Of a stretch of DNA of 43,055 nucleotides, positions 2,629 to 28,713 are shown piece by piece. A program made the position numbers and the translations under genes. Source of the DNA: a virus; IMG/VR virus record IMGVR_UViG_3300021478_000008, positions 1 through 43,055 of that record. The stretch is one strand, 5' to 3'. Under the pieces are notes generated by a model. That model saw nothing but the letters and a program-made list of their open reading frames with translations. It was not told the DNA's origin and made no database searches. Every line of letters begins with the position of its first letter. The first letter of the stretch is position 1.

Positions 2629-3342
2629 TCAGCTCCCTGCTTTGCTCTCGTTGACCCGCACCGTGACCTTGACGTCGGGCGGCGCGGTGATCTCGACCAG
2701 CACCTCGCTCGTCACCGGCAGCGGATCGACATTCGCCGGGTTAATCCACGCCAGCAGCTGCCCGTCGCTGCCGTTGAAGCGGTTGAGGTCGACCGCGGTG
2801 CCGTCGATGCCGTCGACCGTGCCGCTCTCCGAGTACTGCCACAGCGTCCACGCCGGGTAGGTCGCCTCCGGCCAGCTCGGCGTGCCGGTGGTGTACTGCG
2901 CCAGCCACAGGTCGGTGTGGTCGGCGAGCACGGCGTCGTAGTTGTTGCCGAGCTGCTCCTTCAACAGATGGCCGCTGTAGACGGTGATCTTGAGGTCGCG
3001 CGGATCGGACAGCAGCACCTGCACCGCCTCGCGCAGGTCGTCGAGGCTGCAGCCGTCCTCCTCGTAATCGATCACCACGCGCTCGCCCGGCTGCGGATCC
3101 ACCACGCTCAGGAAGTATTCCATCTGCGCGGTGGCGTTGCCGGGCTTGATCCAGTGATAGCAGCACACCGCAATGCCCGCTTGAATGGCGTTGGCGCAGT
3201 TCTTCGCCCGGTTCGGATCTTCGTAAGAGGTGCCCTCGGTCGCCTTGTGGATCATGGCGATGACGCCCGCCGCCTTCACCTTGGCGAAATCGGGGAAGCC
3301 CTGCCAGTGCGAGATGTCGATGCATGTGACGGTGTCGCTCAT
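2629..3342 (-). CDS. GH25-family endolysin (lysozyme/muramidase), 237 aa
   Basis: A glycoside hydrolase family 25 muramidase, which cleaves the MurNAc-GlcNAc bond of peptidoglycan. Residues 1-190 carry the family signatures: CIDISHWQG with Asp9, HKATEGTSYEDP at 32-43, YHW at 62-64, the catalytic VVIDYEE with Asp92 and Glu94, LWLAQYT, and WTLWQYSESGTVDGIDG ending in DLNRF. Residues about 195-237 form a short beta-rich extension that may bind wall or capsid. There is no signal peptide, so release probably needs a holin; the two-helix gene downstream is the candidate. The start overlaps the upstream gene's stop by ATGA. Confidence 0.88.
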   Translation of the reverse strand: MSDTVTCIDISHWQGFPDFAKVKAAGVIAMIHKATEGTSYEDPNRAKNCANAIQAGIAVCCYHWIKPGNATAQMEYFLSVVDPQPGERVVIDYEEDGCSLDDLREAVQVLLSDPRDLKITVYSGHLLKEQLGNNYDAVLADHTDLWLAQYTTGTPSWPEATYPAWTLWQYSESGTVDGIDGTAVDLNRFNGSDGQLLAWINPANVDPLPVTSEVLVEITAPPDVKVTVRVNESKAGS

Positions 3343-5110: not shown

Positions 5111-6691
5111 CTATTCCTCCGTGGTCGGGTCGCCCATGAACCCGCGGTTCTTCAGCTGGTTGAGCATCTGGATGGTGATGGCGTTGCGGGTGCTCTCGCC
5201 GAAATTGCCGAGCCCGGGCCCGGCCACCGTGGGCGCGTTGGCGGCGCGCTCGCGGTACAGCGGCGAGCGCATCGCCATGCGGTCGGCCAGCTCACTCGCC
5301 GCGTTGACCATGGCGCGATTGCCCGCGCTCTTGACGGCGTATCCGGCCGCCGGAATGCCGATGCCCGCGATCAGCGGCTTGACGTCGCCGGTCATGAAGG
5401 CCGTCGCCGCGCCGCCTGCCCCAAGCGTGCCGCCGTAGGCCCCGAGGCCGCCGCCCATCAGATTGCCGAGACCACGCACGACGTTGGCGCCGGTGTCGCG
5501 GCGAACCACCGACCTTATGTCGGCCTTTTCTTCGGGGCTGTACCAGCGGCCTTCCCGGCTCTTGGGATTGAGCAGGGCAACGAGCTTTTGCCGATAGGTG
5601 TTCTCGACGTTCTGGCCGGAGTAGGCGCTGGCGGCGCGATCAGAGGCGTACTGGTTGGTTTCCTCGACGGTCTGGGTGCGCTTGGCGGCGCGGTAGTTGC
5701 CGCGGGCCTGATTGAGCAGCTGCCCGATCTGGGCCTGCTCCCTTGGACCACCACGAACCACGCCGCTCGGGTCCTGCATGTAGTTATCCAGCCACTGACG
5801 CGCCTGAGAAGCGCCCGGCTCATTGACGCCAGTGAGCTGCTGACGCAGCTCGTCAATGTTCTTGGGGCTGACGGTGGCGCCGACAACGCCGGGCTGATTG
5901 GCCTGCTGTCGGTTTTCACGACCGAGCCGCAGCGTCTCCCAGACGCTGGGGGATTTGACTTGGTTGGTGGTGCCATAGAGCTGCTGCTCCAGCGCGTCGA
6001 GGCCGCCCCAGAAATGGTTGGCATCATAGGCGATCGGGACGGCGTGGGTCGCGGTATAATTGCGGGTGGTCTCGGCTTTCAAATCGGCCGAACTCGGCGC
6101 CGTCGCCAGCGAGCGATCGGCGACGTTGGCACTGGGGCCAAACGGCGCCCCGAGCGCGCCGCCGAGCGCGCCGCCGATCAGCGCGTTGCGACCATAGTCG
6201 GACGCGTTGCCGCTGTAGGTGTTGCCCGCCGCCTGTGCGGCGCCGAGCACGCCGCCCTCGATGCCATAACCGACGGCCCGCGCCCCGGTGCCATAGGCGC
6301 CCGGCAATGCACCGCCGAGCGTGCGCGACACGGTGCGGCCGATCGCACCGGCGCCGGGCACGTAGGCCTGCGCGGTGCCGCCCGCGACGTCACCCGCGAC
6401 CGACAGATACGGACTGCGCTCGCGCCGCATCGCGCTGTCGGCAACCGCCTGATCAACGCCCGCCGAGTAGCTCGGCGCCTCGCCGGTCAAGGCGCGATAG
6501 CCGCCCTCCAGCCGGTCGCGCATCCCCATCGAGAAGGTGTTGGAGGCCGCCTTGGCAAAGTCGGCGGCATTGCCCAGTGCCGTGGCTGGCGGCGGGTAGT
6601 TGACCGGCGCGCGGTCTTCGAACGGGTTGCCCGAGATCGGCACCTGCGGCGGCGGCAACGGGGCGTCTTCATCGAATGGGTTGACTGGCAT
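5111..6691 (-). CDS. probable internal virion / ejection protein, 526 aa
   Basis: A large Ala/Gly-rich protein with a proline-rich N-terminus (NPFDEDAPLPPPQVP). Several small-residue amphipathic or hydrophobic stretches occur (about residues 100-185 and 405-455, for example GLGAYGGTLGAGGAATAFM) between polar helical parts. This composition and its place between the tail fibre and the transglycosylase-like protein match ejection proteins of podoviruses, which leave the virion and form a conduit through the envelope. The function is inferred from context and composition; there is no diagnostic enzymatic motif. The gene begins 3 bases after the upstream stop. Confidence 0.6.
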   Translation of the reverse strand: MPVNPFDEDAPLPPPQVPISGNPFEDRAPVNYPPPATALGNAADFAKAASNTFSMGMRDRLEGGYRALTGEAPSYSAGVDQAVADSAMRRERSPYLSVAGDVAGGTAQAYVPGAGAIGRTVSRTLGGALPGAYGTGARAVGYGIEGGVLGAAQAAGNTYSGNASDYGRNALIGGALGGALGAPFGPSANVADRSLATAPSSADLKAETTRNYTATHAVPIAYDANHFWGGLDALEQQLYGTTNQVKSPSVWETLRLGRENRQQANQPGVVGATVSPKNIDELRQQLTGVNEPGASQARQWLDNYMQDPSGVVRGGPREQAQIGQLLNQARGNYRAAKRTQTVEETNQYASDRAASAYSGQNVENTYRQKLVALLNPKSREGRWYSPEEKADIRSVVRRDTGANVVRGLGNLMGGGLGAYGGTLGAGGAATAFMTGDVKPLIAGIGIPAAGYAVKSAGNRAMVNAASELADRMAMRSPLYRERAANAPTVAGPGLGNFGESTRNAITIQMLNQLKNRGFMGDPTTEE

Positions 6692-13268: not shown

Positions 13269-14984
13269 CTACACGTTGACGCCCGCGGCCTCGTACAGTG
13301 CGGCGATCGAAATCAATTCCACGTTCGGCGGCGCCTGCTGCGCCACCGTCACCTGACAAATCGGCGCGTGGGAAAATCCGGTATAGCCGATCGAGACCCA
13401 GCCGGTGCTGCGCACCACGGCGGTCGACGGCGGCGCGATCTGATCCCACTGCAGGTAGGCGACCTTGTCCGGCGCGCTCGGCGGGTTCTGCACCGGCAGC
13501 GGATTGCCCGGCGACCACGGCGGCGTAAAGCCCGGTGTCGGGCCCCACAGGCCCTGATCCCAGACGTCAGCGACGCCGGGATCCGGCGCCGCTGAAGGTG
13601 CGGGAGGGATCGTGATCACATAGTCCGTACAGGCCGACAGCTGCGGCTGGAACGGCTCGCCATTGCCGGATGAAAACGCGGCCCGTGCCTGCCGAAACAC
13701 CATGGTGGTGGCCTGCGACGAGAACATCTCCCAGCCGCCGACCATTACGGCAGTGTAAGGCTGCCCGTCATCATAGCCGGTGCGGTCAGCCTGCATGATG
13801 AGACCGAGCTGGGTGCCGAAGAACATGTCGCCGCGCATTCGACAAAAGCACATCGCATCCCAGCCGAGATAGCGCGCCCACGCGCCGGTGGCGATGTTGA
13901 CGATCGCGCAATACTGGTTGCCGGGGTTGCCGCCCGGCCACGTCACGAACATGCCGCCGTATTCGTCCCATTTGCACATCGTCCACGGCAACGCGCGCTT
14001 GGCGATCACTTCATCGCGCCACATCGGCTTGATGGCGCGGGTGATCGAGGCAAGATCAAGTTGTGAAACATCTTTGGTGATGGAAGCGCTGATCGGGATG
14101 ATGCCATCCACCGTAGCGATCAGGATGTCGCCGCCGATCGCCTGATGCGCGTTCATCCCCAGTGGAACGGACGTGGTGTAGCGGCCCTCCTGCCGCCAAT
14201 TGGCGGCGTCGGACGGGTTACTGCCAGTGAAGATCAACAGCTCGCCCTGATCGGTGCAGAACACGCACTTGTCGTCGATGCCGTCCCCGGCATCGATCGA
14301 CCACGAGGCACCCCACAGCAGGCTGCCGCCCTTGGTGGCGGCACCCGCCAGCGGGATCAGCGACAGCGCGCCCTGAATGGCGTTGGTCGCGAGGTACCAC
14401 GCATTCATGGTGCCGCCTTCGAGGAAGAAGTAGCGGCCGCGGTATTTCCAGACATAGACGAGGTTGTGCCCGGCGACCACGCTGGTGCCGACGGGGCCGG
14501 TGATCTGTCCGGCATTGAAGGTGGTCCACGCCGCGCCGTCGAAGTGCAGCACGTAATCACCGGCGTCGTTGCAGACCAGCATGTGATCGCCCGAAGCGTT
14601 GGCAAGCTGCGAGGCGACGTAGTTGCCGCTGAGCTGCCCCGACTTGATCAGGGTTGGCGTGCCCGCAGTGACGTCGTAGAGCTTGGCGGCGTTGCCCGCG
14701 AAGATCTTCTGGTTGTTGCCGGAGATGAACTGAAACATCGAGATGACGGGCGTGGTCTCCGGCAGCGTGCACCAGCGGGTGCAGCCGCCGCGCAGCGCAA
14801 TGCCCTTCATGGTCGGCTTCCAGTTGTCCAGCACCAGCGCGCCGCCGGGCTGCATGAAGCTCTCGTTCTCATTGAGAATAAGGCCTCTCGTCGGCGCCGG
14901 TAGCGTCGTCACCTGCAACTGCTGCGCCACCTGCTGCGGCACCGGCATGCGGCGAAATTTGGCGTAGGCGGTCACGGCGGTCAT
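13269..14984 (-). CDS. tail tubular protein B-like nozzle, 571 aa
   Basis: Placed directly after the adaptor gene, as gp12 follows gp11 in T7-like phages. The protein begins with PAPTRGLILNENESFMQPGGALVLDNWKPTMKGIALRGG, the typical opening of podoviral nozzle or stabilisation proteins, and continues as repeated beta-strand pairs (KIFAGNAAKLYDVTAG, HLVCNDAGDYVLHFDG-like, IFTGSNPSDAANW) consistent with a beta-propeller. It would form the distal tail tube that carries the fibres. I chose the ATG at 14984 because it makes an ATGA overlap with the adaptor stop; a GTG at 14999 gives five extra residues. The C-terminal part (450-571) is Pro-rich and may contact fibres. Confidence 0.78.
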   Translation of the reverse strand: MTAVTAYAKFRRMPVPQQVAQQLQVTTLPAPTRGLILNENESFMQPGGALVLDNWKPTMKGIALRGGCTRWCTLPETTPVISMFQFISGNNQKIFAGNAAKLYDVTAGTPTLIKSGQLSGNYVASQLANASGDHMLVCNDAGDYVLHFDGAAWTTFNAGQITGPVGTSVVAGHNLVYVWKYRGRYFFLEGGTMNAWYLATNAIQGALSLIPLAGAATKGGSLLWGASWSIDAGDGIDDKCVFCTDQGELLIFTGSNPSDAANWRQEGRYTTSVPLGMNAHQAIGGDILIATVDGIIPISASITKDVSQLDLASITRAIKPMWRDEVIAKRALPWTMCKWDEYGGMFVTWPGGNPGNQYCAIVNIATGAWARYLGWDAMCFCRMRGDMFFGTQLGLIMQADRTGYDDGQPYTAVMVGGWEMFSSQATTMVFRQARAAFSSGNGEPFQPQLSACTDYVITIPPAPSAAPDPGVADVWDQGLWGPTPGFTPPWSPGNPLPVQNPPSAPDKVAYLQWDQIAPPSTAVVRSTGWVSIGYTGFSHAPICQVTVAQQAPPNVELISIAALYEAAGVNV

Positions 14985-15685
14985 GACGGCACCGGCCACG
15001 GATAGGCGACGCGCACGCCTGCCGACATCGGCCGCCGCCCGATGATGATCGGCGACGGCTTGTCGTGCGCCTGCATGTACTCCAGCGCGTCATTGTAGGT
15101 CGCCATGTCCTCGGCATAGGGTGAGCCCTTGTTGGCCTTCCATTGCCAGATCATGCCGAGCCGCAGCACCCGCTCGTTGAGCCGGAAGTTATCGGTGTCG
15201 GCGGCGAATGTGTTGCCCGCGCCACCGCTCGACAGGTTGATGCAGTTGCCATCGAGGTAGGCGAAGCTGGCGGTGACACCCACACCCATCGCGGGCCACA
15301 CCAGCATGTTGCCGCCGAGAATGATCCACTCGCCCCACGGCGTCGACCAGTTCTGCGCCCGGCGCTGCATCCACTCGTCGGCGTCGGAAATGAAGGTCAT
15401 CGGCTGCAGCGCCGAGGTCGAGCGCCAGACGTTTGACGTCAGCAACATGCGCTTGTAATTGGCGGGCAGCGGGAAACTGGTCTTGACCCCATCACCCGTG
15501 AACACGTTGGTCAGGATCAGCTGGGTCCAGTCGCGGTTGTCGTAGGCAATCCGGTTGGCCATTTCGTTGGCCAGTGCCAGCAGCTCCTGCATGGTACGGT
15601 TGGCGGTGATGTTGACCAGCACGGATTGCGGGCTCGGCACCCCGATCACCGCGCAGACGTTCTGCACCACCGACAACAGGCTCAT
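14981..15685 (-). CDS. head-to-tail adaptor (tail tubular protein A-like), 234 aa
   Basis: N-terminal helices MSLLSVVQNVCAVIGVPSPQSVL and MQELLALANEMANRIAYDNRDWTQL, followed by LTNVFTGDGVKTSFPLPANYKRML and a beta-rich middle (GEWIILGGNMLVWPA), match the gp11-like/gp4-like adaptor pattern of podoviruses. Late helices (ERVLRLGMIWQWKANKG, DMATYNDALEYMQA) complete the family shape. It would form the dodecameric ring between portal and nozzle. Gene order capsid, small protein, adaptor, nozzle agrees. The start lies one base after the upstream gene's stop region and its own stop is ATGA-coupled to the nozzle gene. Confidence 0.75.
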   Translation of the reverse strand: MSLLSVVQNVCAVIGVPSPQSVLVNITANRTMQELLALANEMANRIAYDNRDWTQLILTNVFTGDGVKTSFPLPANYKRMLLTSNVWRSTSALQPMTFISDADEWMQRRAQNWSTPWGEWIILGGNMLVWPAMGVGVTASFAYLDGNCINLSSGGAGNTFAADTDNFRLNERVLRLGMIWQWKANKGSPYAEDMATYNDALEYMQAHDKPSPIIIGRRPMSAGVRVAYPWPVPS

Positions 15686-16533: not shown

Positions 16534-17559
16534 TCAGGCCGCAGGGTTGCTGTCGTAGAACCGCCAATTGAACAGCGGATTTGTCATGGTCAGCTCGCCC
16601 ATCCAGCCGATGAACTGAGCAATCGCATCCTTGTCGATGGGCATCTGGCCTTCGCCTTCGAACAGCTTGTCGAAGTTCCTCTTGGAGTTGTAGCGGATCC
16701 GCATCGTGTCGGTATTGATGCCCAAGGTTGTGTTGGCGGGCATGTTGGATCCGATGCCGCCGTCGAGCACGATCTCGGCGCGTTTGCCCCCACCGATGTA
16801 CTCCAGCGCGGAAAAGCCGAGCTTGCCGAGCGAGGTCTCGTTGGTCTGACGCTGGATCGCCACGGTCGCCGCGTCATAGGCCGCGTAGTGCTCCGGCGAC
16901 ATGATCAAGAGATCCGCGTAGTCGCGGCCGCGGCTTTGCCGGGTCATAATCAAGTTGAGCATGGGACGGATGGTGGTCGACAACACCTGCGTGCCGATCG
17001 AGGTGAACGGCGCCGCGTTGGCGTCGTAGATCGAGGTGCGCCAGATCGTGGCACTGCCGCGATCGATGCCGCCATAAATGCCGGAGGTGTTGACGATCGG
17101 CACCGCGGTGGCGAGGCCGGTGATCTGCTTGCCGCCATTGGCGGTGCCGTCAGAATAGATGCCCGCGTCCATGGCGTCTTCGAGCGCCTTCTCGGCCGCC
17201 GACATGTAACTCTCGTAGACGTCCATCAGCTGGGCTTCGCCCTCGTTGTTGAGGATCTCCTGCATGCTGAGGATGATGGGAATGACGACCATCTTCGGAT
17301 CGAAAAACGCGTCATTGAACAGATCGATCGCCGGGTTGAGCAGCTGGTCGTAACCGCTGTACCACTGCGCCGACTGCTTGCCGATCTGCAGCGTTTGCCG
17401 GATTTTCGGCCCAGAGTAGGTTTGCCAGAGACCCTTGCGGCGCATCACCGCAAGCATCGCGTTGTTGTTGGAGACGAGGTCCTGATAACCTGACGAGCGG
17501 TCCTCGACCGCCATGCTCAGGATCTGCTGATATGCAGCATTCGAGGTGACATTGGGCAT
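16534..17559 (-). CDS. major capsid protein, 341 aa
   Basis: A phage major capsid protein of the HK97-type fold as found in podoviruses lacking a cleaved delta domain. Recognisable parts are the N-arm (YQDLVSNNNAMLAVMRRKGLWQTYSGPKIRQTL), the long spine helix region (MQEILNNEGEAQLMDVYESYMSAAEKALEDAMDAGIYSDG) and the P- and A-domain strands (ADLLIMSPEHYAAYDAA, LEYIGGGKRAEIVLDGG; LGINTDTMRIRYNSKRNFD). The C-terminus WMGELTMTNPLFNWRFYDS is typical. The ATG follows GGTGGAG with 5-base spacing, one of the best ribosome sites in the block, as expected for the most abundant protein. The scaffold gene lies immediately upstream. Confidence 0.85.
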   Translation of the reverse strand: MPNVTSNAAYQQILSMAVEDRSSGYQDLVSNNNAMLAVMRRKGLWQTYSGPKIRQTLQIGKQSAQWYSGYDQLLNPAIDLFNDAFFDPKMVVIPIILSMQEILNNEGEAQLMDVYESYMSAAEKALEDAMDAGIYSDGTANGGKQITGLATAVPIVNTSGIYGGIDRGSATIWRTSIYDANAAPFTSIGTQVLSTTIRPMLNLIMTRQSRGRDYADLLIMSPEHYAAYDAATVAIQRQTNETSLGKLGFSALEYIGGGKRAEIVLDGGIGSNMPANTTLGINTDTMRIRYNSKRNFDKLFEGEGQMPIDKDAIAQFIGWMGELTMTNPLFNWRFYDSNPAA

Positions 17560-23453: not shown

Positions 23454-25868
23454 TCAGATCCCTCCCGCCACGGGCGGCGGTTGCTGCGCCTTCATCTGCA
23501 TCGCGGCCTGCCGCTCGTTCTGCCGCGCCGCCATGTCCTGCGCCTTCATGCGGTGCTGCGCCGCCATCAGCATGGTCTTCTGCTGCACCGCCTGCAGCTC
23601 GGCCTGCGCTTTCGCCATCTCGGCCTGATGCGCCTGCTGGCTCTCCACCATCTTCTGCTGCTGGATCGCGACGTCGGACTGCTGCTCACCGGCCGCGCCC
23701 TGCAGGTCCATCTGCTTGGCCATGGTCTCGCTCTGCAGCTTCTGCTGGAAGTGTGCATTTTCCATTTGCAATTTGTCGGCCGCCAGCTTGGCGTCGGTGG
23801 CGTTCTTCTCGCGCACGGTGCGATCCTTCATCGCCTCGACCTGCAGCATGATCTGGCCCTGCGCCGTGGTCGGATCCGGCGCCTGCGGGCCCTGCCCCTT
23901 CGCCTCCATCTGCTGCACCAGCTCATCGATCGCGCCGTCCAGCGCGCGACCGGCGCGGAACGGCGCGGTGGCGAACTTCAACAGCTCGCCGCAGAACTTC
24001 GCGGTCGTGGGGTCGGCTTGGATCATCTGCGCCAGCTGCGGCAGCAGCTGCCCGAGCACCCCAACGAACTCGGTGCGGCGCTGCTTCTCGCCGTTCTCGT
24101 CCGCCATGATCGTGCTGTCGGTCTCGATGTCGAGCACGAACTGCTTGGCGCGGTTGTCCCTGAGAAAATTGAGCACCTGCTCGACGGTGACCTGCTGCTG
24201 GGTCTGTTCGATCTCGCCGACCATCTGCTCCAGCTGCTGCTGCGCCTGCGCCATCTGCTGCTGGCGCTGCTGCTGCTGATCCGGTGGTGGCGGCCCGCCG
24301 GGCGGTGATCGGCCGCCCGGCGGAGGACCGCCGGGTGAAGGTGGTCCCGGTGGCCCTTGCGGAGGCGCCGCCAATTGCGGAGGTGGCGGCGCCATCTGCT
24401 GCTGATACTGCTGGATCTGCGCCTGCAGCTGCTGTTCGAGCTGTGCGACCTGCTGCTCGACCATGCGCGTGGTCGGCAGCTGCGTCTGCGACATCTCGAT
24501 CATGGTCTGCGGCTTGAATTTCTGGGTGATGATCTCGCTGGTGATCTCGACCACGTCGCGCGCCAGCCGCACCAGCTCCTGCTGCTTGTCGCGGATCCGC
24601 GTGGTGCCGTACTGCGTCTTCAGCTGCTGCGCGCCGAGCGTCTCATCGGGATCGGTGTCGCCGCGCATGATGTCGGCCATGCCCGTTAACTGATAGATAT
24701 CGTCGATGATCTGCTTGCGCAGCGTCACCAGCGCGATAATCGTGGTTGAAATGGTGTCAATCGGCAGCCACTCGATCACCGAGTTGGTGCCGCCGAACGC
24801 CGCCCAGTTGGCGATCGGCACCAGCATCCGCGAGGTCGCATGCGTCTTCACCGCGGTCTCGACCGCCTCGGCGATCTCGCCGCCGCCCGCGGGGTAGAAG
24901 CCCTTCGCCTCCAGCGCATCGCTGAGCGCGTGGATCCGCGCGGTCAGCGTGTTGACCTCGTCCAGCTGGTCCTTGTACTGCATCACGTCAGGCACGGGTA
25001 TCAGCGATCCCCGCTGCACCGTGGCATACGCAGGCTTGGGACACGGGAAGTAGTTCTGCAGCTCCAGATGCGGGTCGTCCTCGTCGAGAATATCCTCGCA
25101 GCCGTGCGCCACCCACAGCACGCGGCGCGAGGTCTTGTCCCAGATCTCCCAGAACATGGCGCGCTCGCGGTTGTCACCGCCACCGACTTCCTTGCTTTCT
25201 TTGTCGACCTTGTAGTCGGCGTCTTGGTAAGCGTTGCCACTGTGCGCGTGGAAGCGCTTGCGCGCCTCGCTGCGCGTCAGATAGGAGGCGCCCGCCACCC
25301 ACGTCACTTCACGCCAGTTACGCGAGAGCGAGTGCAGGAAGTCGCGGCGGTGCTTGAAGTCGATGCAGACGCGCTCGGAGGCGTAGTAGCCCTCGCCTGC
25401 ACTTTCATACCGGCACCACGCCACGCCGCGGCTGTTCATGGCGACGTCGTCGCGCACCAACAGCATCAGGTCGTTGATCCGCGTCAGATCGAACGCCACC
25501 ACGCAGCAGCGCTCCATGAACTCGCTGGCGGCTTGGTAGACCGGCCGTCGGTCCTTGAACTTCGGCACCACCACCGGCACCGGCGGCTTGGCATAAATGC
25601 TGGGCTTGATGACTTCGCAATTGGCCCAGAACATCGCGAACTGGCGATCGCGCACCGCGCGTCCCGTGACCGAGTTGGTCGCGAGACGCTCTAACGATGC
25701 GTAGAGTTTATCGATGTTGTCGCAGTGGTCGTGCCAGCGCTCGAAGGCTTCCTCGCTTTCGAGCAGCAGGTTGAGCCACGCCTTCGCCTTGTTGGGCTCG
25801 ACGGCAGGGTTGTATTCCTGATCGTCGTGCCGCAGGTCGTCGCCCACAGGCGCGTCAGGTTCGGCCAT
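23454..25868 (-). CDS. portal protein, 804 aa
   Basis: A large podoviral-type portal. The N-terminal third carries ERWHDHCDNIDKLYASLER, NCEVIKPSIYAKPPVPVVVPKF and LLVRDDVAMNSRGVAWCRYE, typical clip/wing-region segments. The core follows (VMQYKDQLDEVNTLTARIHALSDAL, IIDDIYQLTGMADIMRGDTDPDETLGAQQLKTQ, split over family-conserved blocks), where QLTGxxDIxRGxxxxxETxxAQ is the portal hallmark. The C-terminal 320 residues are Gln/Pro-rich with long coiled coils (barrel extension). It makes the dodecameric DNA channel that docks TerL. The ATG lies about 7 bases after GGGAAG. The 216-aa repeat protein precedes it. Confidence 0.87.
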   Translation of the reverse strand: MAEPDAPVGDDLRHDDQEYNPAVEPNKAKAWLNLLLESEEAFERWHDHCDNIDKLYASLERLATNSVTGRAVRDRQFAMFWANCEVIKPSIYAKPPVPVVVPKFKDRRPVYQAASEFMERCCVVAFDLTRINDLMLLVRDDVAMNSRGVAWCRYESAGEGYYASERVCIDFKHRRDFLHSLSRNWREVTWVAGASYLTRSEARKRFHAHSGNAYQDADYKVDKESKEVGGGDNRERAMFWEIWDKTSRRVLWVAHGCEDILDEDDPHLELQNYFPCPKPAYATVQRGSLIPVPDVMQYKDQLDEVNTLTARIHALSDALEAKGFYPAGGGEIAEAVETAVKTHATSRMLVPIANWAAFGGTNSVIEWLPIDTISTTIIALVTLRKQIIDDIYQLTGMADIMRGDTDPDETLGAQQLKTQYGTTRIRDKQQELVRLARDVVEITSEIITQKFKPQTMIEMSQTQLPTTRMVEQQVAQLEQQLQAQIQQYQQQMAPPPPQLAAPPQGPPGPPSPGGPPPGGRSPPGGPPPPDQQQQRQQQMAQAQQQLEQMVGEIEQTQQQVTVEQVLNFLRDNRAKQFVLDIETDSTIMADENGEKQRRTEFVGVLGQLLPQLAQMIQADPTTAKFCGELLKFATAPFRAGRALDGAIDELVQQMEAKGQGPQAPDPTTAQGQIMLQVEAMKDRTVREKNATDAKLAADKLQMENAHFQQKLQSETMAKQMDLQGAAGEQQSDVAIQQQKMVESQQAHQAEMAKAQAELQAVQQKTMLMAAQHRMKAQDMAARQNERQAAMQMKAQQPPPVAGGI

Positions 25869-26724: not shown

Positions 26725-28131
26725 TCATAGCACGATCCCGCCGCGATAGCTCTCGTCGACCGGCGGAATGACCCAGCCACCCGGTACCGGCGGCCTGACC
26801 TGCCGCAGCGGCGCCGGGCGCCACGCCTGCGACAGGTAGCGGAAGGCGTCGGCGGGATCGGTGGTCCAGTCCTTGTAGGCCGTTGGTTTGAAGCACTTCT
26901 TCTCGTCATCCCACTCGCGCCGGTACTGCTCCAACGCGCTGATGCCGCCGGGCTCGCAACGCGGATGGAACACGCACAGCGGCAAGGTGAAACGAACGGC
27001 CTGAATACCATCCGCGATGGTCGCCTGCGGGATCGGCTTCGGGTGCAGTCCGATCAGCCGCATGGTCTCGACCCGGGTGCGGCCGGTGCCAAATTCCAAG
27101 ACGTTGGCGTCGTGCGGCACGAAGTCATAGCCTTCCTTCCAGCCGTGCTCCTCGCGGCGCTGCGCGATCACCTCGGCGTAGTGCTCGACGCCGACGCCGG
27201 AGGCGGCGTAGTGGTCGAGGATCACGAGCTGGGCGCCGCGCGGCTGAAACCACCAGATGCTCGTGTCATTGGCGACGCCGAGATCCCACGCCCGATGCAC
27301 CGGCCGATCCTCCAGCGCGATCGCCTGCGCGGTGATGCGGCCCTCGCTGCGCACGGCCGCCATTTCTCGCGCAAAAAATGCGCCGACAATCGCCGCCGAG
27401 AAGCTGCAGAGATACTCTTGTTCATAGGCCGCGGTGCCCATGTCCTCGCCATATAGCGCCTGATACTCGCTGAGCGCTTCGGCCAGCTCGACGTCGCTCA
27501 GCGCGCCAGTGTCCTCGGCGGTGAGCAGCTCGGCGAACCAGCCCTTGGTGCGCTGGGCATATTCGTAGATCGCCTTCGCATGATTATGACCCCGCGGGGT
27601 GGTGATGAAAACCGCCCAGCCATGGTTCTCCTGCAACATCGGGCGATGATAGGCCCACGCGCTCGGGTTCGCGGTCGCATACTCGGAATAAGTGATGCCC
27701 GCGGGCCCGGCGCCGAGGGCTGCGTCATAACGATCGCTGCCGATGCACTGGAACGTCGAGCCGTTGTGCAGCCGGATGAACATCTCGTTGTCGACGGTGT
27801 TGGACCTGATCTCATGCGGGAAGGCCTCGTCAATGCGTCGCTTGCCGGTGTGGGCGTTGACCGCGGTCCAGATCGCCTTGCGGCACTGGTTGTATTCCGG
27901 CAGCGCGTGCCAGTAGTTGCCAACGCGGCGCAGCGCGCTCATGGCGCTGTGATGCAGGCAGATCTCGTCCTTGCCTGCGCGGCGGTGCCAGATCGCCACC
28001 GCGCGATCGCCGCCATCCTGCAGATATTTCCACAGCTTCATCTGATGATCGCGCGGCCACCATTTGTTGGCGGGCATTTCGAACCCGCCCTCCGCGGCCT
28101 CGGCGCGGTACGATGCGGAGTGATACGTCAT
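26725..28131 (-). CDS. terL: terminase large subunit, 468 aa
   Basis: DNA-packaging motor ATPase and headful or site-specific nuclease. The N-terminal ATPase shows a deviant Walker A, IWHRRAGKDE with Lys54, a Walker B-like GITYSEYA near residue 145, and the coupling motif FITTPRG near 175. The nuclease half begins with the RAWDLGVANDTS aspartate near residue 282 and shares the RNase H-like pattern of the family, with a late DAxRY region (PADAFRYLSQAW). Length is typical for podoviral terminases. The ATG overlaps the stop of the 41-aa membrane gene (ATGA). Portal, scaffold and capsid follow downstream in the same direction. Confidence 0.87.
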   Translation of the reverse strand: MTYHSASYRAEAAEGGFEMPANKWWPRDHQMKLWKYLQDGGDRAVAIWHRRAGKDEICLHHSAMSALRRVGNYWHALPEYNQCRKAIWTAVNAHTGKRRIDEAFPHEIRSNTVDNEMFIRLHNGSTFQCIGSDRYDAALGAGPAGITYSEYATANPSAWAYHRPMLQENHGWAVFITTPRGHNHAKAIYEYAQRTKGWFAELLTAEDTGALSDVELAEALSEYQALYGEDMGTAAYEQEYLCSFSAAIVGAFFAREMAAVRSEGRITAQAIALEDRPVHRAWDLGVANDTSIWWFQPRGAQLVILDHYAASGVGVEHYAEVIAQRREEHGWKEGYDFVPHDANVLEFGTGRTRVETMRLIGLHPKPIPQATIADGIQAVRFTLPLCVFHPRCEPGGISALEQYRREWDDEKKCFKPTAYKDWTTDPADAFRYLSQAWRPAPLRQVRPPVPGGWVIPPVDESYRGGIVL

Positions 28132-28253
28132 CGCTCGTCATCCATCGGCCACGTGCGCTTCACCATCGCCTGCATCAGCCACAACATCAGAGGGAAGCTG
28201 ATGAAGCCGAGCAGGAACACCACGAAGCAGATCAGCACGTCGGTCACGGTCAT
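28128..28253 (-). CDS. 41-aa single-span membrane protein
   Basis: MTVTDVLICFVVFLLGFISF plus PLMLWLMQAMV is one long hydrophobic helix or a helical hairpin, ending in a basic and then acidic tail (KRTWPMDDER). The start overlaps the Acb2/Tad1-like gene's stop (ATGA) and its stop overlaps the terL start (ATGA), so three genes are translated as a chain. A membrane peptide beside the terminase is unusual; it may be a superinfection or lysis-accessory peptide, but no evidence decides. Confidence 0.7.
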   Translation of the reverse strand: MTVTDVLICFVVFLLGFISFPLMLWLMQAMVKRTWPMDDER

Positions 28254-28465
28254 TTCTTCGTGGTGGCCGCCTTCACCGCCCACATCGCCGCTTCCTCGTA
28301 AGACGTCTGCGCCAGACTGGCGAGCCGCGCGTCGAGCGGCTTCAGCTCCTCGCAGAGATCGATCAGATCCGCGGTGTAGCGCTTGATCTTGTCGACCATG
28401 TCGTCCTTCGACGGATTGAAACTCTCGCGCACCCGCTGCGCGCCTAGGCTCATGCTCTCGGTCAT
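28250..28465 (-). CDS. Acb2/Tad1-hairpin-domain protein, putative immune-signal sponge, 71 aa
   Basis: Residues about 16-71 fit the helical hairpin of the Acb2/Tad1 family: FNPSKDDMVDKIKRYTADLIDLC forms the first helix and DARLASLAQTSYEEAAMWAVKAAT the second, with the conserved R-x-x-x-L-A-x-T-x-x-E-x-A-x-M-W-A-x-K-A pattern. Known members bind and sequester cyclic oligonucleotide (CBASS) or gcADPR (Thoeris) signals and so block host abortive immunity; they act in the cytosol as oligomers. Here the gene lies in the packaging cluster, with ATGA coupling to a membrane peptide upstream of terL. Function is inferred from the pattern and the ligand is not predictable. Confidence 0.62.
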   Translation of the reverse strand: MTESMSLGAQRVRESFNPSKDDMVDKIKRYTADLIDLCEELKPLDARLASLAQTSYEEAAMWAVKAATTKK

Positions 28466-28713
28466 GGTTTTTTATCCACAATGGTTCTGAGGATGATCTT
28501 CAAGTCGCCGCCCTCGGCGTCGGTGTGCGGCTGGTTGGGCTTGCCCCAACCGCGGTCGAGCAGCATGCCGATCGCGCGCAGTTTGATGTCGTCATCGACC
28601 TTCGGGCCGTTGGCGTAGGCACCCAGTGTGGCGATGCTCGACGCGGTGTAGGCGCGCGCCAGCGAGCGCATCTTGGCGAGAGTATCCGGCGTTTTCTTTT
28701 TCGCGTTAGCCAC
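28462..28713 (-). CDS. putative small terminase subunit, 83 aa
   Basis: A short helical protein with KMRSLARAYTASSIATLGAYA and RAIGMLLDRGWGKPNQP, the wording found in small terminase-like phage proteins (helix-turn-helix bundle followed by LLDRGxGKPxQ) and a C-terminal beta strand (LKIILRTI). It would bind the packaging site as a ring and present DNA to TerL. It lies two genes from terL and overlaps the Acb2-like start by ATGA. It is shorter than classic TerS proteins, so this may be a partial or reduced version; no other TerS candidate is present. Confidence 0.6.
   Translation of the reverse strand: MANAKKKTPDTLAKMRSLARAYTASSIATLGAYANGPKVDDDIKLRAIGMLLDRGWGKPNQPHTDAEGGDLKIILRTIVDKKP

Follow-up and report, generated by a model that had tools for sequence, protein, structure and literature searches.

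We analyzed DNA from an uncultured soil phage (an IMG/VR virus record of 43,055 bases), the whole of which is referred to here as the window. On the minus strand of the window, a candidate gene for the terminase small subunit (TerS; 28713-28462) is followed by a short gene that we call acb2, by the gene for a 41-aa peptide (28253-28128) and by the gene for the terminase large subunit (TerL; 28131-26725), and then by those for the portal and major head proteins:

28462..28713, minus strand: 83-aa candidate for the terminase small subunit, with a GTG start and an ATGA overlap with acb2; assigned from its position and the PHROG match of its homologue in relative L066
28250..28465, minus strand: acb2, a 71-aa Acb2/Tad1 hairpin protein and candidate cyclic-nucleotide sponge; assigned from PF24729, an AlphaFold2 model, BFVD matches and conserved residues
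28128..28253, minus strand: 41-aa single-pass membrane peptide; assigned from sequence and hydropathy; ATGA overlaps with acb2 and with TerL
26725..28131, minus strand: terminase large subunit, 468 aa; PHROG matches phrog_2 (E 2.9e-19) and phrog_2472 (E 2.1e-28)
23454..25868, minus strand: portal protein; PHROG portal (E 8e-176), downstream in the same operon direction
16534..17559, minus strand: major head protein; PHROG major head protein (E 1e-72), a same-strand structural gene

A preliminary description of this DNA had placed acb2 between the small and large terminase genes. The large-subunit part of that statement stands (E 2.9e-19), while the small-subunit part is plausible but weak: the TerS candidate of the window has a PHROG match of its own at only E 0.32, its L066 homologue has E 6e-4 against a PHROG for the terminase small subunit, and its predicted structure is of low confidence (pLDDT 65.7). 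The small-terminase label for 28462-28713 is thus used here with that qualification. The reported ATGA coupling of acb2 to the 41-aa peptide is a real overlap, and the two other junctions, TerS candidate/acb2 (28462-28465) and 41-aa ORF/TerL (28128-28131), are ATGA as well. Given these junctions and the lack of a clear ribosome-binding site before acb2, acb2 most likely relies for its translation on the preceding gene being translated. Since ATGA junctions run from the TerS candidate through to TerL, acb2 is probably produced together with the packaging and head genes, its position pointing to late expression. Elsewhere in the window, an endolysin is encoded at 2629-3342. The match of a 576-aa protein encoded between head and tail genes (13269-14999) is to a PHROG that bears the name amidase (E 1e-117) but may be a structural family under a wrong label.

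The translated acb2 of the window (71 aa, minus strand) is MTESMSLGAQRVRESFNPSKDDMVDKIKRYTADLIDLCEELKPLDARLASLAQTSYEEAAMWAVKAATTKK. Its assignment to the Acb2/Tad1 hairpin group had been proposed from a C-terminal residue pattern, which is matched exactly by RLASLAQTSYEEAAMWAVKA; this is the only occurrence across all six reading frames, compared with ~1e-9 expected from residue composition. When the protein is scored against the Pfam profile PF24729, it reaches 51.8 bits (E 9.6e-14), above the curated cut-off of 27 bits. As yardsticks, the same profile scores T4 Vs.4 at 71.4 bits, Acb2 of Pseudomonas aeruginosa phage 20Aug470 (97% identical to PDB 8h2j) at 65.9 bits, VP882 p26 at 65.6 bits and FNPS-subgroup proteins of four cultured phages at 37.5-51.4 bits. 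A phmmer search of PDB sequences gave no significant match to the window protein, a profile search reached a solved Acb2 weakly (T4 Vs.4, E 0.18), and the PADLOC and NCBIfam models did not match it. Likewise, a near-identity search with positions 18001-43000 of the window found no match among cultured phages. Comparison of acb2 with its counterpart in relative L001 yields a dN of 0.076 and a dS of 0.46, indicating that the gene is under purifying selection. At the level of sequence, then, the window protein is judged to be a genuine member of PF24729, a family that was already known, and the profile, the fold model and the conserved residues described below bear out the proposed assignment.

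We modelled the protein with AlphaFold2 as a monomer, using a 48-row alignment. The model (pLDDT 92.6) has helices at residues 7-11, 22-40 and 46-67, that is, a short N-terminal helix and two long antiparallel helices, and a short N-terminal helix with a hairpin is the published layout of Acb2 (PMC10419184). When the model was searched against BFVD, a library of viral structures, the first and second matches were named Acb2/Tad1 hairpin proteins. Foldseek and VIA-align searches of the PDB listed no Acb2 chain and returned unrelated helical hairpins of a generic kind. Significance is not reached with hairpins of this size, so the result is perhaps expected for so short a protein, and we count it neither for nor against the assignment.

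The residues of the presumed ligand site are largely conserved. In an alignment with T4 and PaMx-type Acb2, K28, T54, M61 and A66 of the window protein are invariant (K28 and T54 across all aligned members), and F16, K28, R47 and T54 are invariant in 48 relatives. K28 falls on K26 of PaMx33 and R47 on R67, which we take to be ligand contacts, K26 presumably at the dinucleotide site. F16 aligns with T4 Y8 and PaMx33 Y11, the stacking aromatic of the cyclic dinucleotide site, so that the aromatic ring is kept and the hydroxyl lost; in T4 Acb2, the Y8A mutation disrupts binding (PMC12657218). T54 aligns with T4 T68, and the T68M mutant of T4 Acb2 has a lower affinity (PMC12657230). The loop from F16 to the conserved lysine is three residues shorter than in T4 and PaMx33, Thr68 occupies the place of the base-stacking F82 of T4, and in L008 the loop before the conserved lysine has three residues more than in the window. 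Given the phenylalanine in place of tyrosine, the shorter loop and Thr68 at the F82 position, the ligand specificity of the window protein may differ from that of the T4 and PaMx33 proteins.

Among known systems, the PaMx33/PaMx41-type Acb2 of P. aeruginosa phages (PDB 8h2j, 8ixz) shares with the window protein the PF24729 family, the short N-terminal helix and hairpin, and the lysine (K26/K28), arginine (R67/R47), threonine (T74/T54) and C-terminal-helix methionine and alanine. It differs in that aligned identity is ~14%, its length is 93-94 aa compared with 71 aa for the shorter window hairpin, Tyr11 stands where the window has Phe16, and PaMx41 acb2 lies at that end of the operon which is opposite to the structural genes, whereas acb2 of the window lies among packaging genes. 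T4 Vs.4 (Acb2, PDB 7uq2) shares PF24729, a C-terminal helix of the A-x-M-W-A-x-(R/K)-A type, T68 at the position of T54 and an aromatic-x-Pro at Y8/F16, but is 25% identical to the window protein, and its gene sits among vs genes by regB and not near the terminase. Closer in sequence (41-51% aligned identity) are FNPS-type PF24729 proteins of the cultured phages EcP1, FCL-2, elemoA and DSL-LC05, which share its FNPS N-terminal motif and are annotated as hypothetical only. Tad1 has the PF24729 hairpin in common with the window protein by Pfam's definition, but possesses an N-terminal antiparallel beta-sheet (PMC12043709). The 71-aa model contains no beta-strand, and the four-strand sheet domain of Tad1 is absent; the window protein is therefore no Tad1, and its all-helical architecture, as modelled, fits Acb2.

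The position of acb2 within a packaging operon had been described as an uncommon arrangement. A scan of viral contigs found 191 acb2 relatives; the contigs of the best 80 of the 191 were used, and TerL was located in them by PHROG, Pfam and protein searches. After dereplication, 26 contigs measure 15 kb or more and carry TerL; in 19 of them, acb2 shares the strand of TerL and is no more than 2 kb away from it, compared with ~3.4 expected under uniform placement (P ~1e-12, a value that overstates the surprise, given the partial relatedness of the phages and the non-uniform placement of genes). With TerL clustered at 40% identity, these terminase-linked genes span eight clusters. The description of the arrangement as uncommon thus fails; in its place stands a site beside the terminase that recurs and is used by sponges from two families, a finding of moderate interest. 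A TerS-like ORF, acb2 and TerL are consecutive or have one small ORF between them in L067 and in the L005/L053/L076 lineage, and in the cultured phage DSL-LC05 the gene lies two genes after TerL. The Acb2 protein is 86-88% identical in phages with a TerL that either shares 27% identity with the window TerL or cannot be aligned with it, and synonymous sites in these comparisons are at or near saturation (dS > 1 or not computable), indicating that the protein is held similar by strong constraint and not by recent transfer alone.

Seven relatives of the window TerL (60-64% identity) lack acb2, and in these TerS directly adjoins TerL or a different small ORF stands between the two; acb2 is thus an accessory at this site, an optional passenger at a favored location that does not belong to the packaging machinery. 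The acb2 relatives of T4 and PaMx41 lie away from terminase genes, those of EcP1 and elemoA away from annotated terminase genes, and that of PM105 two genes after the capsid gene. Other small ORFs that occupy the TerS-TerL gap of relatives (L008:5805-5996, L008:6338-6556 and L129:3864-4034, one of them Cys-rich and 63 aa long) are candidate accessory or counter-defence genes. On the host side, SMODS (CBASS synthase) matches occur in 6 of 21 host genomes with acb2 relatives, a count without a matched control that we set aside. In one uncultured Rhodobacteraceae genome, seven contigs (L101-L107) carry acb2 relatives of equal identity score, as if the genome held several related prophages.

A second sponge family, Tad2 (PF11195), is found in 4 of 50 acb2 contigs, a small number; it was searched for in the whole window and is absent there. 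The four genes (76-97 bits to PF11195) are:

L131:772-1026, Tad2-like gene, directly upstream of acb2 (L001/L131)
L061:1409-1639, Tad2-like gene, directly downstream of acb2 with an ATGA overlap
L076:5515-5748, Tad2-like gene, likewise downstream with an ATGA overlap, in the order TerS-acb2-tad2-TerL
L067:8229-8447, Tad2-like gene, just past TerL

These Tad2-like genes by acb2 and TerL suggest paired sponge cassettes at the terminase. Tad2 relatives also stand beside head genes, assigned by eye, in L142 and L143, where acb2 was not detected. Several other neighbors were observed. In L063, a 64-aa ORF (6207-6398) that overlaps the end of acb2 by ATGA has a sub-threshold PF24729 match (13.5 bits) and may represent a second hairpin that has diverged and lies in tandem with the first. 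A conserved ~150-aa protein (M(S/T)KxIQYCTCK(I/V)NLAGQNCHTV...) follows acb2 or acb2-tad2 in L034-L039, L061 and L080. The 6.2-kb contig L001/L131 is nearly palindromic and contains TerS, Tad2 and acb2 twice, one copy being frameshifted; the near-palindrome is probably an assembly artefact.

PF24729 membership, the fold model, residue conservation, location and ATGA coupling together lead us to favor, at a probability of roughly 80%, the reading that the window ORF encodes an Acb2-type nucleotide sponge. The purifying selection on acb2, its optional presence at the site and the Tad2 genes beside it in relatives also speak for this reading; the weak sequence match to solved Acb2 structures, the phenylalanine at the stacking position, the shorter loop and Thr68 in place of F82 weigh against it. 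In this scheme, the helical hairpin and short N-terminal helix would assemble into a hexamer, which would hold the cyclic di- or trinucleotide alarm signals of CBASS-like systems. With the signals sequestered, the CBASS effector would stay off and the cell would survive long enough for phage production, the sponge presumably being made late with the packaging and head proteins. A same-fold sponge with a main ligand other than a CBASS nucleotide (a Thoeris signal, or a cyclic or ADP-ribose signal of another kind) appears unlikely to us. PF24729 includes both Acb2 and Tad1, Tad1 binds gcADPR in addition to cyclic nucleotides (PMC12043709), some relatives pair acb2 with the anti-Thoeris family Tad2, and the phenylalanine and shorter loop could shift specificity, making a shifted ligand possible. 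However, the N-terminal beta-sheet domain of Tad1 is missing from the window protein and, if Tad2 covers Thoeris, its partner acb2 would more likely cover CBASS.

The preliminary description also suggested that acb2 and the membrane peptide may work together. The peptide (Kyte-Doolittle maximum 2.8) matched no family in searches of Pfam, PHROG and further models, and its relatives were found only in L008 and L001, beside acb2 in both; a peptide with the motif LLGF(I/T)(S/T)FPL thus follows acb2 in the window and these two, the three nearest genomes. In other close relatives the gene 3' of acb2 is TerL, Tad2, an FlbD-like ORF or an unrelated ORF, and a dedicated partnership is therefore not supported as a general rule. 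A two-part device, such as a membrane-anchored sponge or a sponge with a membrane-effector inhibitor, would fit the motif and the ATGA overlap, but every junction in the operon is ATGA, so this feature does not set the pair apart, and the peptide is absent from other close acb2 relatives; we consider such a device very improbable. We give even less credence to a packaging or virion accessory role, in which the hairpin fold would aid the terminase or capsid. The ATGA-linked position between the TerS candidate and TerL, and the recurrence of terminase linkage, are what such a role would predict; against it stand the TerL relatives without acb2, the association of acb2 with terminases that lack detectable mutual similarity, the conserved ligand-site residues, and the location of the T4, PaMx41 and EcP1 relatives away from terminase genes.

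Returning to the Acb2-type sponge, we tentatively extend this reading, at somewhat less than even odds, to a general one: the terminase neighborhood of uncultured soil phages may be a docking site for late-made sponges (Acb2, Tad2 or both) across unrelated packaging lineages, so that the sponge would appear along with the proteins for head and packaging, the assembly of which may trigger signal-based immunity. The 191 relatives that one search recovered from uncultured viral contigs, many of them by the terminase, in at least eight terminase lineages and some with Tad2, give this site its wider relevance. Since Acb2 also triggers Panoptes defence (PMC12657218), carriage of acb2 has a testable cost. 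Provided that the sponges are functional, the site beside the terminase would be a place to seek new counter-defence genes, and late co-expression would provide a testable link between capsid and packaging proteins and the timing of CBASS-type immunity.
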